64,000 bases of DNA from NCBI RefSeq assembly GCF_000697965.2, contig NZ_CP015880.1, positions 3,936,001-4,000,000 of the forward strand, written 5' to 3'. Every line of letters starts with the position of its first letter. The stretch's first letter is position 1. Of the stretch, positions 6,089 through 11,893 are shown in pieces. The translations under genes and the position numbers were made by a program. The notes beneath the pieces are model-generated. The model worked only from the letters and a program-made list of their open reading frames with translations, was not told where the DNA came from and did not search any database. Source of the stretch: Ensifer adhaerens. Lineage in GTDB: Bacteria > Pseudomonadota > Alphaproteobacteria > Rhizobiales > Rhizobiaceae.

Positions 6089-6625
6089 ATTCGCAGACCG
6101 TTCAAAGCGGACGCCCCCGTCAAGGAGGGGCCGCGCTCAAACAAGGAAATCCGGGTGCCCCGGGTTCAGCTTATCGACGCCGAAGGCCAGAACATCGGCG
6201 CCGTCCCGATCGACCAGGCGCTCCGTATGGCGGAGGAAGCCGGTCTTGATCTGGTGGAAATCGCGCCGAACTCCGAACCGCCGGTGTGCAAGATCCTCGA
6301 TCTTGGCAAGCTGAAGTTCGCCAACCAGAAGAAGGCGGCCGAAGCGCGCAAGAAACAGAAGATCGTCGAAATCAAAGAAATCAAGATGCGTCCCAACATC
6401 GACACGCACGATTATGACGTGAAGATGCGGGCGATGAACCGGTTCTTCGAGGACGGCGACAAGGTCAAGGTCACGCTGAAGTTCCGCGGTCGCGAAATGG
6501 CCCACCAGGAACTCGGCATGAAGCTTCTGCTGCAGGTCAAGGACGACACCCAGGCGATTGCCAAGGTGGAAGCCGAGCCGAAGCTCGAAGGCCGCCAGAT
6601 GATGATGGTTCTCGCGCCGCGCTAA
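6089..6625 (+). CDS. infC: Translation initiation factor IF-3 (ATT start)
   Basis: A 178-residue IF-3, which binds the 30S subunit, blocks 50S joining and proofreads the start codon. The N-domain has [18 protein letters not shown] and [17 protein letters not shown]; the basic linker [11 protein letters not shown] and the C-domain [19 protein letters not shown] follow. The reading frame reaches back without ATG to ATT at 6089, preceded by GAGGAGA, giving [14 protein letters not shown] (first residue read as Met). A GTG at 6155 would delete the conserved N-terminal segment. AUU starts on infC are known and let IF-3 limit its own synthesis. Unusually, rpmI-rplT do not follow directly but lie about 3.7 kb downstream. 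Confidence 0.94.
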
Positions 6626-6654
6626 GCGCGTGCCGCCCATCCGTCGAGATTACG

Positions 6655-6679
6655 AAAGCCGCCTCCGGGCGGCTTTTTT
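6655..6679 (+). terminator. Rho-independent terminator after infC
   Basis: Perfect 9-base stem (6655-6663 with 6668-6676), TCCG tetraloop, then a T tract to 6679. It isolates infC from the following cassette. Confidence 0.9.
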
Positions 6680-6702: not shown

Positions 6703-6721
6703 TGCTGACAGAATGCTGACA
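6703..6721 (+). promoter_or_regulatory. Tandem direct repeat, candidate OmpR-family response regulator site
   Basis: TGCTGACA occurs at 6703-6710 and again at 6714-6721, an 11-base period (one helical turn), as in PhoB/OmpR-type sites. It is 73 bases upstream of the first aspartate-rich gene, and an OmpR-family regulator is encoded in the same cassette. Confidence 0.5.
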
Positions 6722-6793
6722 ATCGCCCTCAGCGAGCTGTCAGGCGTCCCGTGCCATTCTCTCCGCATCGCATCGGGAGAAGGAGCCGAGATC

Positions 6794-7318
6794 ATGACTT
6801 CAGTACTGCGCAAGGCCTTGCTCGTTTCTACGGTCGCCGTCTGCGGCCTCGTTTCGGCGCCGATTGGCGCTTCCCTCGTTGCCACCGGAGCGTCGCATCC
6901 CTTCTCGACCATGGCGCTCGCCGACGATGACGATGACGGTGACGATAACGGCGGTCGTGGTGGCGGCAATGACGACCGCGACGACGATCGGGACGACGGT
7001 CGTCACAACGATCGAGACGATGACGATGATCGTGGCCCCGGTCATCGCGACGACGATGATGATGACCGCTTCGACGACATCGACGACGACTTCGACGATG
7101 CCCGAGATGATCATGAGATTGAACTGCGGGTGACCGACGAAAATCTCCGGGGCCTGCGCAATGGTTCGCTGGTTGCCGTCGACAATCTCGGCCGGGTGCT
7201 CGAGGTCGAGGTGGAATACGAACATGGCGTTCGCGTCGTGACGGTCGAGCCGCACGACAGCGATATCCGCCGCAATCCGGGACCGGTCGGCAGCGTCTCC
7301 ATCCGGCCGGCATTCTGA
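6794..7318 (+). CDS. Secreted aspartate-rich protein
   Basis: A 174-residue protein of unrecognised family. Residues 1-43 look like a signal peptide ending SHPFSTMALA. Residues 44-107 are low complexity with about 35 Asp plus Arg, Gly, His and Asn, broken by short basic steps. The C-terminal 65 residues are ordinary sequence (ELRVTDENLRGLRNGSLVAV, then VLEVEVEYEHGVRVVTVEP) that looks like a small beta-rich domain. Such an acidic stretch could bind divalent or trivalent cations in the periplasm, but that is inference. The start is fixed by GGGAGAAGGAG just upstream. It heads the cassette with the PepSY-type protein and the two-component pair. Confidence 0.8.
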   Translation: MTSVLRKALLVSTVAVCGLVSAPIGASLVATGASHPFSTMALADDDDDGDDNGGRGGGNDDRDDDRDDGRHNDRDDDDDRGPGHRDDDDDDRFDDIDDDFDDARDDHEIELRVTDENLRGLRNGSLVAVDNLGRVLEVEVEYEHGVRVVTVEPHDSDIRRNPGPVGSVSIRPAF

Positions 7319-7411
7319 TCAGGTCACAATTTGCCCGGCGCATTCGCCCCACACCATGCGCCGGAGCGATGGTCGGCCGTCACCAGCCCGCCCGGCGGCC
7401 CGACCCGGCAA

Positions 7412-7453
7412 GCGCATGCCCCCTGTGCCCGAAACGGCGCCGGGGGCATGCGC
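7412..7453 (+). promoter_or_regulatory. Strong hairpin between the two aspartate-rich genes
   Basis: Perfect 12-base arms (7412-7423 and 7442-7453) around an 18-base loop, with no T tract. It lies in the 280-base gap between the two genes and could be an attenuator, an mRNA stability element or a protein-bound operator. Confidence 0.5.
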
Positions 7454-7598
7454 GTCGCTGGCGTTCTCGTCAAGGCTGGCATAGGCTCGCCCCGAACGAT
7501 GCCCGCGGCGTCGCCGCAGACGAAGCACCTGGCGGATGCTTGCGCAAGCGCATTTGGAAGGACCCGACGCTGAGGAGCAGTTGCGACAGGATGAAGCC

Positions 7599-8066
7599 AT
7601 GGCGATGACACGACGAGACCTGATCGCGCTCTTCTGCTGCTCGCTCCTGCTTTCGCTCGCGCCGCAGCCCGGCGGCATGGCGGCTCTCGCCAAGGATGAC
7701 GACGACGATGATGACGGTGGCTCGCATGGCGGTGGCGGGCACGGCAACGACGATGACGACGATGATGACGAAGACGATGATGATGATGATGACGACGAAG
7801 ACCTAGGGCCGGATGATGCCGGCGGTATCCGTCGAAGCGATCAGGAGCGGGCGCGCGACGGCGTCGAAAAGGGCGACATCCTGCCGCTGAAGGAGGTTCT
7901 CCGGCTGGTCGACGAAGACAGATACGGCCAGGTCATTGCGGTCGATCTCAAGCGATCGGGTGGCAGCGAGATTTACCGGCTCCGCACCCGCGACGAGCAG
8001 GGCACGATCCGCAACCTGCGCATCAATGCTCGAACCGGCAAGTTCGTGAACATTTTCGGGTTCTAG
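7599..8066 (+). CDS. Secreted poly-aspartate protein with PepSY-like C-terminal domain
   Basis: A 155-residue protein. Residues 1-31 form a signal peptide with an N-terminal TRRD and hydrophobic core LIALFCCSLLLSLAP. Residues 33-69 are almost pure Asp with a Gly/His-rich insert, including runs of seven or eight Asp. The last 65 residues resemble a PepSY domain: GDILPLKEVLRLVDEDRYGQ, then IYRLRTRDEQGTIRNLRINA and TGKFVNIFGF. PepSY proteins often adjoin PhoP/PhoQ-type pairs and may modulate the sensor. The stop is 9 bases before the response regulator, so the three genes are probably one transcript. GAT/GAC repeats code the acidic run and may vary in length. Confidence 0.82.
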   Translation: MAMTRRDLIALFCCSLLLSLAPQPGGMAALAKDDDDDDDGGSHGGGGHGNDDDDDDDEDDDDDDDDEDLGPDDAGGIRRSDQERARDGVEKGDILPLKEVLRLVDEDRYGQVIAVDLKRSGGSEIYRLRTRDEQGTIRNLRINARTGKFVNIFGF

Positions 8067-8075
8067 AGGAACGAC

Positions 8076-8741
8076 ATGCGGATTCTTCTGGCGGAGGACG
8101 ATCCCAACATCGCGGCCCATGTGGCAAGCCGGCTGGAGGCGGAAGGCTACGGCGTCGATACGCTCACCCATGGCCCGGATGTCTGGGAGCAAGGGGAGAG
8201 CGGTAACTACGCCCTGGTCATCCTCGATCTCGGCCTGCCGGGCATGGACGGGCTGTCGATCCTGAAGCGTTGGCGGCAGGCGGGGCTGGAGACGCCGGTT
8301 CTGGTTCTGACGGCGCGCGGCTCTTGGATGGAGCGCGTCGACGGTTTCGATGCCGGGGCGGACGACTATCTGCCGAAACCCTTTCGGGCCGAGGAGCTTC
8401 TGGCGCGGCTGCGCGCCCTTCTGCGGCGCGCCGGTCCGCGTGTTGCGTCGGTGCGTGCTGCCGGACGCTTCACCCTCGACGAGGCGGGGCGCCGGGTGAC
8501 CTTCGACGGGCTGCCGCTCGACCTCAGCCCGCTCGAATACCGCATGCTTGCACTGTTCGTGGAGCGCAAGGGGCAGGTTGTCACGCCGCTCGAGCTGGCA
8601 AGCCACGTTCAGGGCCGCGACGATGATGCCGCCAAGAACGCAGTGGAAGCGATGATTGCCCGTCTGCGCAAGAAGACGGAGAGCGGTGCGATCGAAACGC
8701 GGCGTGGATTTGGCTATGTCCTGCCGGACGGTGGCGCATGA
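8076..8741 (+). CDS. OmpR/PhoP-family response regulator
   Basis: A 221-residue two-domain regulator. The receiver domain (1-120) has acidic residues near position 8, the phosphorylated Asp51 in VILDLGLPGMDG, Thr79 in VLTARG and Lys101 in YLPKPF. The C-terminal winged helix (about 125-221) has GLPLDLSPLEYRMLALF and TRRGFGYVLP. It closely resembles PhoP/FeuP-type regulators. Its stop overlaps the start of the kinase by four bases (ATGA), so the pair is translationally coupled. Candidate target: the 11-base-period direct repeat upstream of the first Asp-rich gene. Confidence 0.93.
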   Translation: MRILLAEDDPNIAAHVASRLEAEGYGVDTLTHGPDVWEQGESGNYALVILDLGLPGMDGLSILKRWRQAGLETPVLVLTARGSWMERVDGFDAGADDYLPKPFRAEELLARLRALLRRAGPRVASVRAAGRFTLDEAGRRVTFDGLPLDLSPLEYRMLALFVERKGQVVTPLELASHVQGRDDDAAKNAVEAMIARLRKKTESGAIETRRGFGYVLPDGGA

Positions 8742-10105
8742 TCCGCTCGTTGCGGCTGAGGCTGGCAATCGGCGCATCGGTCGCCATCTGCCTGGTTCTG
8801 CTGGTGGTCTGGCTCTCCTTGAGCCGGCTTTTTACCGACTACGTTGCCGGGCGCTACCGCGCCGAAATGGCAACGCTCGTCGATACGGTTGCCGCCCAGG
8901 TGCGGGTGCGCAACGGTGAATTGGTGCTGCCGCGCGCGCCGGCCGATCCGCGCCTGAGCCTGCCGGCCGGCGGCCGCTACTGGCAACTCAACCGCGACGG
9001 CGGCACTCCTTTGCGTTCGCGCTCCCTGTGGGACACGGTGATCGATGCCGATCGACCGTCGGCGCCGCACCACCTGGGCTTCCTCGAAGCGGAGGGGCCG
9101 GACGGCGCGCCGATCCTTGTCTACCGCCAGGCCCTGACGCTTGGCGAAGGCGCGGATGCCAGGCAGTTCGCGGTTACTGCCGGCTTTGCGCGCAGCGAAC
9201 TCGATGACGCTCTTTCCGCCTTTCACGGCCGTATCCGGCTGATGCTGCTGGCGACGGCCGTCGTGCTTGCCGGCGCCGCATTCCTGCAGGGTGCCCTCGG
9301 CCTTCTGCCACTGGTGCGGCTGCGGGAACGAGCCGCCCGCGTCCGGTCGGGCGAGGAGAAGGATTTTGGCCTGGCCGGGCCGCGCGAGGTGCAGCCGCTC
9401 GTCAGCGAAATCAATCTACTGCTTGCGGAGCGCGCGACCGCGCTGGCGCAAGCCCGGGCGCGCGCCAGCGACCTCGCCCACGGGCTGAAGACGCCGCTGA
9501 CGGTGCTGGCGCAACTCGCCGAAGGCCTGCCGAAACACCAGCGCGACATCGCGCTCGAACAGGTCGACCTCGTACGCCAGCGAGCCGACCGCCAGCTTCA
9601 GGCGGCCCGCATGGGCGTCGAGCGCATGGCAACGACCTTGCTCGCCGATCTCGGCAACAAGCTGGTCAGCGTCCTGCGTCCCGTGACCGCGGAGCGCGAC
9701 GTCGTCTGGGAGGTCGACATCGATCCGTCGATTTCACTCGACGTCGACCCGGCCGACCTTGCCGAATGTCTCGGCAATCTGCTCGACAATGCCGCCAAAT
9801 GGGCGCGGGCACGGATCCGCCTATCGGCCGAGGTGGTCGACGGGCGCGTGCGGATCACGGTCGGTGACGATGGGCCGGGGGTTGCCGAGGGCGACCGCGA
9901 GCAGGCGATGCGCCGCGGGGGGCATAGTGCCAATGCAGCGCCGGGCCACGCCTCCGGCAATGGCCTGGGGCTTGCGATCAGCGCCGATATAGCGGAGGCC
10001 TATGGCGCGACCATGTCGCTCGGGCAGTCGGCCCTGGGCGGTCTCGAGGTCGCACTGATCTTCGACGTCGGCGGCGGCAGCCGGCGCCCGCGCGATCCGA
10101 CCTGA
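8738..10105 (+). CDS. PhoQ-like sensor histidine kinase
   Basis: A 455-residue inner-membrane kinase. TM1 is about 8-30, the periplasmic sensor domain about 31-165, and TM2 about 167-193. The dimerisation helix carries the phospho-accepting His248 in the PhoQ-type motif DLAHGLKTPL. The ATPase domain has the N box ECLGNLLDNAAKWA, the G1 box GDDGPGVAEGD and a G2-type GNGLGLAISADIAEAYG. In PhoQ the sensor domain responds to divalent cations through an acidic patch. Here the partners encoded upstream are themselves acidic secreted proteins, suggesting cation or envelope-stress sensing, which is inference. Confidence 0.92.
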   Translation: MIRSLRLRLAIGASVAICLVLLVVWLSLSRLFTDYVAGRYRAEMATLVDTVAAQVRVRNGELVLPRAPADPRLSLPAGGRYWQLNRDGGTPLRSRSLWDTVIDADRPSAPHHLGFLEAEGPDGAPILVYRQALTLGEGADARQFAVTAGFARSELDDALSAFHGRIRLMLLATAVVLAGAAFLQGALGLLPLVRLRERAARVRSGEEKDFGLAGPREVQPLVSEINLLLAERATALAQARARASDLAHGLKTPLTVLAQLAEGLPKHQRDIALEQVDLVRQRADRQLQAARMGVERMATTLLADLGNKLVSVLRPVTAERDVVWEVDIDPSISLDVDPADLAECLGNLLDNAAKWARARIRLSAEVVDGRVRITVGDDGPGVAEGDREQAMRRGGHSANAAPGHASGNGLGLAISADIAEAYGATMSLGQSALGGLEVALIFDVGGGSRRPRDPT

Positions 10106-10326: not shown

Positions 10327-10530
10327 ATGCCCAAGATGAAGACGAAATCGTCTGCCAAGAAGCGGTTCAAGATCACCGCGACCGGCAAGGTTCGTGCAGC
10401 AGCTGCTGGCAAGCGCCACGGCATGATCAAGCGTTCCAACAAGTTCATCCGCGACGCACGTGGAACCATGGTTCTCGCGGAGCCTGATGGCAAGAAGGTC
10501 ATCAAGAACTACCTGCCCAACGGTCTCTAA
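10327..10530 (+). CDS. rpmI: 50S ribosomal protein bL35
   Basis: A 67-residue basic protein with the bL35 signature [40 protein letters not shown] and a C-terminal [10 protein letters not shown]. It is a late-assembling component of the large subunit. ATG at 10327 is preceded by a weak GGAG (10316-10319). It is followed 39 bases later by rplT, the conserved order. In most bacteria infC is directly upstream, but here the Asp-rich/two-component cassette intervenes and a separate promoter is likely. Confidence 0.97.
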
Positions 10531-10569: not shown

Positions 10570-10974
10570 ATGGCACGTGTAAAACGCGGCGTAACCGCTC
10601 ACGCCAAGCACAAGAAGACGCTCAAGGCAGCCAAGGGCTTCTATGGCCGTCGCAAGAACACCATCCGCGCCGCCAAGGCAGCGGTTGACCGTTCGAAGCA
10701 GTTCGCTTACCGCGACCGCAAGGTCAACAAGCGCAACTTCCGCGCTCTCTGGATCCAGCGTATCAACGCTGCCGTCCGCGAATTCGGCCTGACCTACGGC
10801 CGCTTCATCGACGGCCTGAACAAGGCTGGCATCGAAGTTGACCGCAAGGTTCTGTCCGACATGGCTATCCATGAGCCGGCAGCATTCGGCGCCCTCGTCG
10901 AAGCTTCCAAGAAGGCGCTCGCCTATCTCAAGGAAGCCGGCACGGCAAACGAGTTTGAAAGCGCTGTTCGTTAA
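10570..10974 (+). CDS. rplT: 50S ribosomal protein bL20
   Basis: A 134-residue protein matching bL20: [39 protein letters not shown], and [20 protein letters not shown]. bL20 nucleates assembly of the large subunit by binding 23S rRNA and in several bacteria represses its own operon by binding the leader. The extension after residue 115 ([20 protein letters not shown]) is usual in alphaproteobacteria. AAGGAG lies upstream of the ATG. A terminator hairpin follows about 40 bases after the stop. Confidence 0.97.
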
Positions 10975-11013
10975 GCCAGCGTTTTCCCAAAATCGTTTTT
11001 GAAATTAGTTGGG

Positions 11014-11046
11014 AAACCCGCGCTGGCAGGGCTGGCGCGGGTTTTT
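11014..11046 (+). terminator. Rho-independent terminator after rplT
   Basis: Perfect 10-base stem AAACCCGCGC (11014-11023) with its complement (11035-11044), 11-base loop, then a T tract. Confidence 0.85.
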
Positions 11047-11119
11047 CTTGTTTTACGGGACGAAAGTGTACCACGATCGAAGGGGACCATGCGCGGTCCC
11101 GGAGCTTGATGACGACGAT

Positions 11120-11893
11120 ATGACGTCTCTGCTGGCAGCGCTTGCAGCCGGCCGGGAGCGCGTTGAGCGCTGCGAGCTCAAGGATCGTATGGTCTGGATC
11201 AAGCGCTATCGTCGTCAGGGCCCTCGTCTTTGGCTGCGCACGCAAGCCTTTGTCGCGCGGATTTGTGGCCTTCCGGTGCTGTTGCCGTCCCCGCTTCTCG
11301 ACATCGAGGGCATGATCGAGCGCGAAGTTCGCCAGATCGCGACCTTCTCCGCGGCCGGTTTCATGACGCCCGAGGTCGTCTACCGTGGGCCGAAGGTGCT
11401 GGTTCTCTCCCATCTTGGTCTGCCGGTCAGCAAGCATATGGGGCCGCTGCGCAACAGCGACGCCGCCGCGCACGATCAGCTGCTGGTGCGCTGCGCTGCG
11501 GAACTCGGGCGCCTGCACCGCGCAGGTCTCTGCCACGGACGTCCGCATCCGCGCGATTTCATCATCGACAACGGCGAATTCGGCTTCCTTGATTTCGAGG
11601 AGGTGCCTGCGAGCGTCATGCCGCTGGCGACCGCCCAGGCGCGCGACCTCTGGCTCCTGTTCCTGCAGGTGGCGAGCCGGGCCGTGCAGCCGGAAACCCC
11701 GGCCGCGGCCTTTGCCGCCTGGAGGCGCGCAGCGCCGGCGGAAGCCAGCCGGGCGCTCACCGAAATCATGCCGCTCTTCATCCGCTTCCTGCCGCTGGCG
11801 CGCTTCGTCCTGCGCTTCCGCAAGGGCAACGATATCATCCGTTTCATCGCTGCGACGGACTATCTGGCGGGTGCAACGCGATCACATTCCTGA
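11120..11893 (+). CDS. Small RIO/LPS-kinase-like protein
   Basis: A protein of about 257 residues related to the small Kdo/RIO-type kinases. The catalytic segment is [14 protein letters not shown] followed by FGFLDFEE, matching the HGxxHPxDxxxxxG...DFE pattern. An N-lobe Lys is plausible in [13 protein letters not shown], and a glycine loop is not obvious. Substrates in the family include lipopolysaccharide core sugars, but the target here is unknown. ATG at 11120 is chosen tentatively; an in-frame GTG at 11066 behind GGGACGAAA is an alternative. It lies between rplT and pheS, 52 bases before pheS, and may share its transcript. Confidence 0.72.

Follow-up and report, generated by a model that had tools for sequence, protein, structure and literature searches.

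A poly-aspartate PepSY two-component cassette between infC and rpmI of Ensifer adhaerens, with a conserved four-half-site operator and a tentative link to calcium

The window analysed here is a stretch of 64,000 nucleotides of Ensifer adhaerens DNA (contig 1, 3936001-4000000; the source genome comprises 7.27 Mb in three contigs). Between infC and rpmI it carries a cassette of four head-to-tail genes; two encode aspartate-rich (Asp-rich) proteins with apparent signal peptides, the third an OmpR-type response regulator and the fourth a membrane histidine kinase with a PhoQ-like catalytic domain. The cassette is very probably a module of the PepSY type, and strong grounds also exist for regarding it as autoregulated. 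On balance we lean towards reading it as an autoregulated, envelope-sensing PepSY-type module in which secreted polyanions would be both partner and output. The evidence that the Asp-rich proteins act on cations is evenly poised, and calcium (Ca2+) is proposed as the main cation only tentatively.

The four genes and the close spacing of the last three had been described in an earlier note on this DNA, and both descriptions hold. The first gene (6794-7318, forward strand, like the rest of the cassette) starts with ATG and encodes Asp1, a protein of 174 amino acids with a signal-peptide-like N-terminus. The second (7599-8066, also ATG) encodes the Asp-rich PepSY protein of 155 amino acids, which has a twin arginine ahead of a hydrophobic stretch and a PepSY-like domain at 7884-8051. 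The regulator gene (8076-8741) begins 9 base pairs (bp) after the PepSY gene and overlaps the kinase gene (8738-10105) by 4 bp. Because of this short gap, and because the kinase gene starts inside the stop of the regulator gene, these three genes are probably a single transcript. The same note had the cassette start at 6703; this position coincides with an operator (6705-6743) and not with a gene.

Assignment of the second protein to the PepSY family is based on its relatives, since they match PF03413 and the member in the window does so only weakly. Of 28 aligned orthologues, 23 match this family at E up to 0.1, with a best value of 2e-07. The N-terminus is hydrophobic by eye, and the apparent signal peptides of the cassette proteins in general were judged in this way; an RR dipeptide precedes the hydrophobic stretch in 32 of 34 orthologues. 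By the rules applied here, 35 of 39 loci have a PepSY open reading frame (ORF) whose end adjoins the regulator. The proposed linkage between the PepSY protein and the kinase is also borne out within the genus: of 16 congeneric genomes, 14 have the two together, and in the remaining two neither is detected.

The receiver and winged-helix domains of the regulator are both matched in full by Pfam (PF00072, 1.8e-25; PF00486, 1.5e-16). Among the solved sequences nearest to it are BasR/PmrA, PhoP and CarR. PmrA is the best NCBIfam family (180 bits, below the 330-bit cut-off), and the PhoP equivalog scores 132.3 bits against a cut-off of 336. The catalytic domain of the kinase resembles PhoQ (NCBIfam, E 4.5e-35; PDB 1id0, E 1.4e-18). 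The likeness to PhoQ suggested earlier is limited to this part; the PhoQ equivalog scores 121.3 bits, and its cut-off is 497. No sensor-domain family is recognised by Pfam in the sensor region at E up to 1. The motif R-S-x-S-L-W-D is invariant in the periplasmic part of 12 aligned orthologues. Among named records, the kinase is closest to two from Ensifer adhaerens (92% identity).

The pairing of PepSY proteins with two-component systems, which the earlier note had pointed out, is indeed of a published kind. PepSY-type two-component modulators were introduced as a new class in 2025; PepSY/two-component neighbourhoods are more than 60 times commoner than chance, across phyla, and DbfQ, a secreted PepSY protein, binds the sensor domain of DbfS to bring about its phosphatase state (PMC12714742). 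In DbfQRS of Vibrio cholerae, as in the cassette, the gene for a small secreted PepSY protein is located directly upstream of the regulator and kinase genes. DbfQRS-like systems have a PepSY gene within four genes of the kinase or regulator; here the distance to the regulator is the 9 bp given above. Unlike DbfQRS, the cassette is led by Asp1, its PepSY protein bears an Asp tract, it mostly keeps a fixed place between infC and rpmI, and it has a conserved four-half-site operator.

BqsPQRS/CarRS of Pseudomonas aeruginosa also has two small proteins ahead of a two-component pair and is also associated with cation sensing. BqsS responds to Fe2+ and not to Ca2+, the system as a whole is reported to respond to Ca2+, and the authors raise the possibility that Ca2+ is sensed by another bqsPQRS protein (PMC12666569). 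The cassette differs in that its kinase has no ExxE Fe2+ motif and that Pfam does not identify its first gene as PepSY. The PhoP/PhoQ pair is comparable in the catalytic domain of its kinase; the cassette pair falls below both equivalog cut-offs and its kinase has no sensor-domain family match. UzcRS of Caulobacter is likewise an alphaproteobacterial two-component system responding to metals; its DNA motif, CATTAC-N6-TTAA, differs from the cassette operator.

The operator ends 50 bp upstream of Asp1. It contains the same half-site four times, two forward and two reverse, in an 11-bp register (CTGACA N5 CTGACA N7 TCAG N5 TGTCAG). The double repeat CTGACA-N5-CTGACA is found upstream of the regulator and before the first gene in 34 of 39 orthologous loci, or 33 of 37 once two duplicate records are removed; in this search the first base was free and A or G was accepted at the last base of each repeat. 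Past the double repeat there is an aligned TCAG; 31 of the 34 loci also have GTCAG at a constant offset.

Genomes were scanned with the 18 bases of three half-sites, which leaves the fourth outside the pattern, and with the reversed pattern as control. Exact matches occur in 20 of 394 family genomes, at one site each (control 0). With up to one mismatch, the pattern is found in 34/394 family genomes and 51/397 order genomes (controls 0); the corresponding count for the class is 7/290 genomes (control 1). The fourth half-site, TCAG, stands at precisely the expected offset in 14 of the 19 distinct family sites and in 31 of the 56 distinct order sites; 15 alternative offsets give 0 to 1 sites each. 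This count excludes the one family site of 38 bases, sites read in reverse, repeats, and two family sites that also appear in the order list. In the source genome, three mismatches admit three further sites compared with 2 for the control.

A related regulator, defined as at least 42% identical to that of the window, was sought in fetched 3-kb loci (within 1.5 kb of the site); the order loci are the 30 fetched, a subset of the places matched in the order scan. Such a regulator is present at 51 of 70 sites: 42/56 in the first set (16/20, 21/30 and 5/6) and 9/14 among further family loci. Some part of the module is present in 48 of the 56. None of 14 control loci, which have a single repeat and come from the source genome, contains a related regulator. 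In several order genomes the operator is located between a PepSY-regulator-kinase unit and a divergent gene for a small PepSY_2-like protein. This signal-peptide-like protein opposite the module is seen in L147, L173, L181, L183, L185-L187, L190 and L195; PepSY_2 is confirmed by Pfam in both proteins tested (L147 and L195).

A second kind of neighbour is acidic or calcium-binding. In locus L148 a gene for an RTX protein (PF00353, E 1.5e-51) faces a PepSY module across the operator, and in L248 an RTX gene (a piece of it gives PF00353 at E 1.8e-29) does so across a one-mismatch site. Among the sites without a module part, L162 has an RTX protein (PF00353, E 2.8e-19), and genes for acidic, signal-peptide-like proteins follow the operator in L168, L169 and L171; no acidic or RTX gene is recognised at L170, L179, L180 or L231. 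RTX genes thus border the operator in three genomes and acidic genes of secreted type in three others. To judge from these loci, the usual company of the operator is the PepSY module, and some of the extra genes are predicted to be acidic or calcium-binding. The idea that the Asp-rich proteins are an output of the regulon gains from this, as the operator precedes the first gene of the cassette and, in relatives, other acidic or RTX genes.

Repeats of the form CTGACA-N5-CTGACA are also present near genes that by eye are TctC-like, in L132 (G000:C2:1057405-1057421) and in L179, where a regulator gene flanks the repeat on its other side. The half-site may thus be common to the TctD branch of regulators.

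The Asp tracts themselves are beyond chance. Among the 248 ORFs of the window with at least 90 amino acids, the densest 30-residue windows contain 19 and 18 Asp in the two cassette proteins; the runner-up has 10. Both Asp codons are used (24 GAC/15 GAT and 18 GAC/15 GAT in the two genes), therefore the tracts are not a simple DNA repeat. Asp1 has no family match in Pfam and NCBIfam searches and is single-copy in the source genome. Its C-terminal domain (7109-7315), which belongs to no known family and aligns across 22 sequences, is modelled as a small alpha/beta fold of strand-helix-three strands-helix-strand (pLDDT 85); a fold search gave no confident match. The motif of this domain is found in the first gene of 18 of 39 loci by rule and of four more by eye; in the remaining loci the first gene is of low complexity without the domain, or none is detected by rule. 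PF00353 repeats are absent from both Asp-rich proteins of the window in a Pfam search.

The proposed mechanism begins at the envelope. By analogy with DbfQ and DbfS, the Asp-rich PepSY protein would modulate the kinase in the periplasm. The phosphorylated regulator would then bind the four half-sites of the operator and drive its own operon, and induction would raise the amounts of both Asp-rich proteins. These would bind a cation, most likely Ca2+, and the feedback loop would be closed by cation buffering at the envelope or by an altered contact between PepSY protein and kinase. Gene order and its conservation, the linkage of PepSY protein and kinase, and the operator with its PepSY-type company are read directly from the genomes compared; we infer that the regulator binds the operator, that PepSY protein and kinase touch, and that the Asp-rich proteins are secreted and bind cations. 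Ca2+ is the leading guess because RTX genes accompany the operator.

One alternative is that the Asp-rich proteins are decoys, produced after outer-membrane damage is sensed, which soak up cationic antimicrobial or polymyxin-like peptides, for example those made by plants. DbfRS is activated by lipopolysaccharide defects and by membrane-damaging antimicrobials (PMC12714742), BasR/PmrA and CarR are among the nearest solved relatives of the regulator, and the products contain much Asp and less Glu. The operator is nevertheless common to RTX calcium-binding genes in three genomes, and orthologues with 2-8% Asp exist; we consider the decoy function unlikely.

The acidic tracts could instead be passive, disordered spacers of drifting composition, in which case only the PepSY domain and the small domain of Asp1 would matter. 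This would suit the spread of Asp content (2-28%), the Gly/Ser/Thr-rich character of some first genes, and the good alignment of the C-terminal parts of the Asp-rich orthologues. It is harder to reconcile with the excess of Asp over Glu in most orthologues and with the acidic or RTX genes that follow four of the eight operator sites without a module part, and spacers are accordingly thought improbable.

Similarly doubtful is a module that senses another metal (iron, a lanthanide, uranyl, aluminium, copper or zinc) with the PepSY protein as ligand. The PepSY proteins UipA and LanP, whose PepSY domains have acidic metal-binding residues, bind uranium and lanthanides (PMC8963506, PMC11845868), and BqsS senses Fe2+ via ExxE (PMC12666569). 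UipA and LanP differ from the cassette protein in having two PepSY domains; here there is one PepSY-like domain plus a low-complexity Asp tract. The ExxE motif is absent from residues 31-168 of the window kinase and present in 4 of 12 aligned orthologues, and the RTX company of the operator suggests Ca2+.

Several observations weigh against an autoregulated, cation-handling PepSY module. PF03413 on the PepSY protein of the window reaches only E 0.024 and misses the cut-off; a search of the source genome with this family at E 0.001 gives zero matches. No sigma-70-like promoter is found. Five of the 39 cassette loci have no double repeat by our pattern, and no module part is near 8 of the 56 first sites or 5 of the 14 further ones. 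The RTX genes of L148 and L248 face modules with regulators at 51% and 48% identity, not the cassette itself, and in the source genome, where the cassette site alone matches at up to two mismatches, the operator is not associated with any RTX gene. Asp content varies from 8 to 28% among 18 Asp1 proteins and from 2 to 26% among 35 PepSY proteins (approximate values from longest ORFs). Gly/Ser/Thr-rich first genes replace Asp1 in Sinorhizobium saheli, Ensifer sp. BR816 and L041; L070, L075, L065, L058 and L033 have the operator without a first gene by our rules. Kinases at least 42% identical are found in 12 of 199 sampled family genomes, which places the cassette in a minority.

The sensor of the kinase adds a further point of this kind. 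The periplasmic sensor domain of PhoQ has an acidic patch. The suggestion that the cassette kinase has one too is not upheld, as its residues 36-165 carry 16 acidic residues and 15 Lys/Arg.

Any kinase match at E 1e-30 is found in 187 of the 199 family genomes. The gene order Asp-rich/PepSY-regulator-kinase is kept in Ensifer, Sinorhizobium, Ciceribacter, Peteryoungia, Rhizobium and other records. In 28 of 38 cassette loci, from many genera, infC and rplT are both in place; of the others, two have infC alone (one of them lies on a short contig), one has rplT alone, and seven lack both (one of these lies on a 4-kb contig). Named carriers at this site include Ensifer, Sinorhizobium shofinae, S. 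saheli, Ciceribacter, Peteryoungia, Rhizobium terricola, Allorhizobium taibaishanense, Agrobacterium vitis, A. albertimagni and Oricola. A distant Pseudomonadota metagenome-assembled genome (L089) has PepSY-regulator-kinase at the same site, and in L166 and L167, two genomes from a different family of the order (f21), infC runs up to the operator of a PepSY module. In 27 five-gene loci, distances for kinase plus regulator track those for infC, rplT and pheS (Spearman rho 0.73; 0 of 2000 permutations as high); the nearest neighbour is identical for both sets in 8 of the 27 loci only.

Loss is also visible. Two congeners have no cassette. In one of them, G204, the infC-rpmI gap (L253:2796-3187) retains about 130 bp that are 75% identical to the 3' end of the kinase gene, so this genome once had the cassette and lost it. 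No such remnant is found in that gap in the other (G207). Of 30 genomes, mostly picked for having no close kinase, 15 have an infC-rpmI gap of 191-391 bp and seven one of 838-1415 bp, and eight have no rpmI within 1.5 kb. A recent, lineage-specific mobile insertion splitting the ribosomal operon, close to what the earlier note had supposed, would fit the 15 short gaps in these chosen genomes and the patchy occurrence in the family and is highly improbable, being contradicted by the site common to 28 of 38 loci, found also in Oricola and the distant metagenome-assembled genome, by distances that track housekeeping genes and by the kinase remnant in G204.

The seven Rhizobiaceae genomes with longer gaps are L209, L213, L215-L217, L219 and L220. 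By eye, the gaps of L215, L217, L219 and L220 contain a gene for a membrane protein of about 220-230 amino acids, and that of L213 a protease-like ORF of 301 amino acids. The infC-rpmI junction seems to tolerate insertions.

The borders of the cassette are ORFs whose order is kept in relatives. Upstream is infC (6155-6625, forward strand), with a terminator-like hairpin on its 3' side (6654-6677, forward strand); this hairpin is weak by itself, as the region contains four such sites compared with a shuffle mean of 3.4. Downstream are rpmI (10327-10530, forward strand) and the rplT ORF (10570-10974). In the rplT-pheS interval, a forward-strand ORF (11009-11893) weakly matches the Kdo/WaaP family of lipopolysaccharide kinases (E 0.0027, below the cut-off); several relatives give short matches only, or none.

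No description of the cassette or its operator was found in the literature searched, which was mainly open-access; the accessible parts of PMC12864828, PMC11481889, PMC12004947 and PMC11511026 contain nothing on the cassette. The earlier note regarded the cassette as the best candidate for an undescribed system in the window. Its PepSY-regulator-kinase core is of the DbfQRS/BqsPQRS type and already described; the cassette varies on this type by its Asp-rich load, and its new element is the conserved four-half-site operator.

The Ca2+ guess for the Asp-rich proteins meets the open question of which BqsPQRS protein senses Ca2+. It is possible, though rather doubtful, that the poly-aspartate proteins are a Ca2+ arm of the module; made under an operator that in relatives precedes RTX genes, they would hold Ca2+ or present it to the PepSY-kinase complex and so tune the Ca2+ capacity of the envelope by feedback. 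If true, BqsPQRS/CarRS-like systems would thereby gain their missing Ca2+-sensing partner. The company of RTX and acidic secreted genes makes it testable which module protein handles Ca2+, and the operator provides a sequence handle on the direct targets of one branch of these modules across the order.

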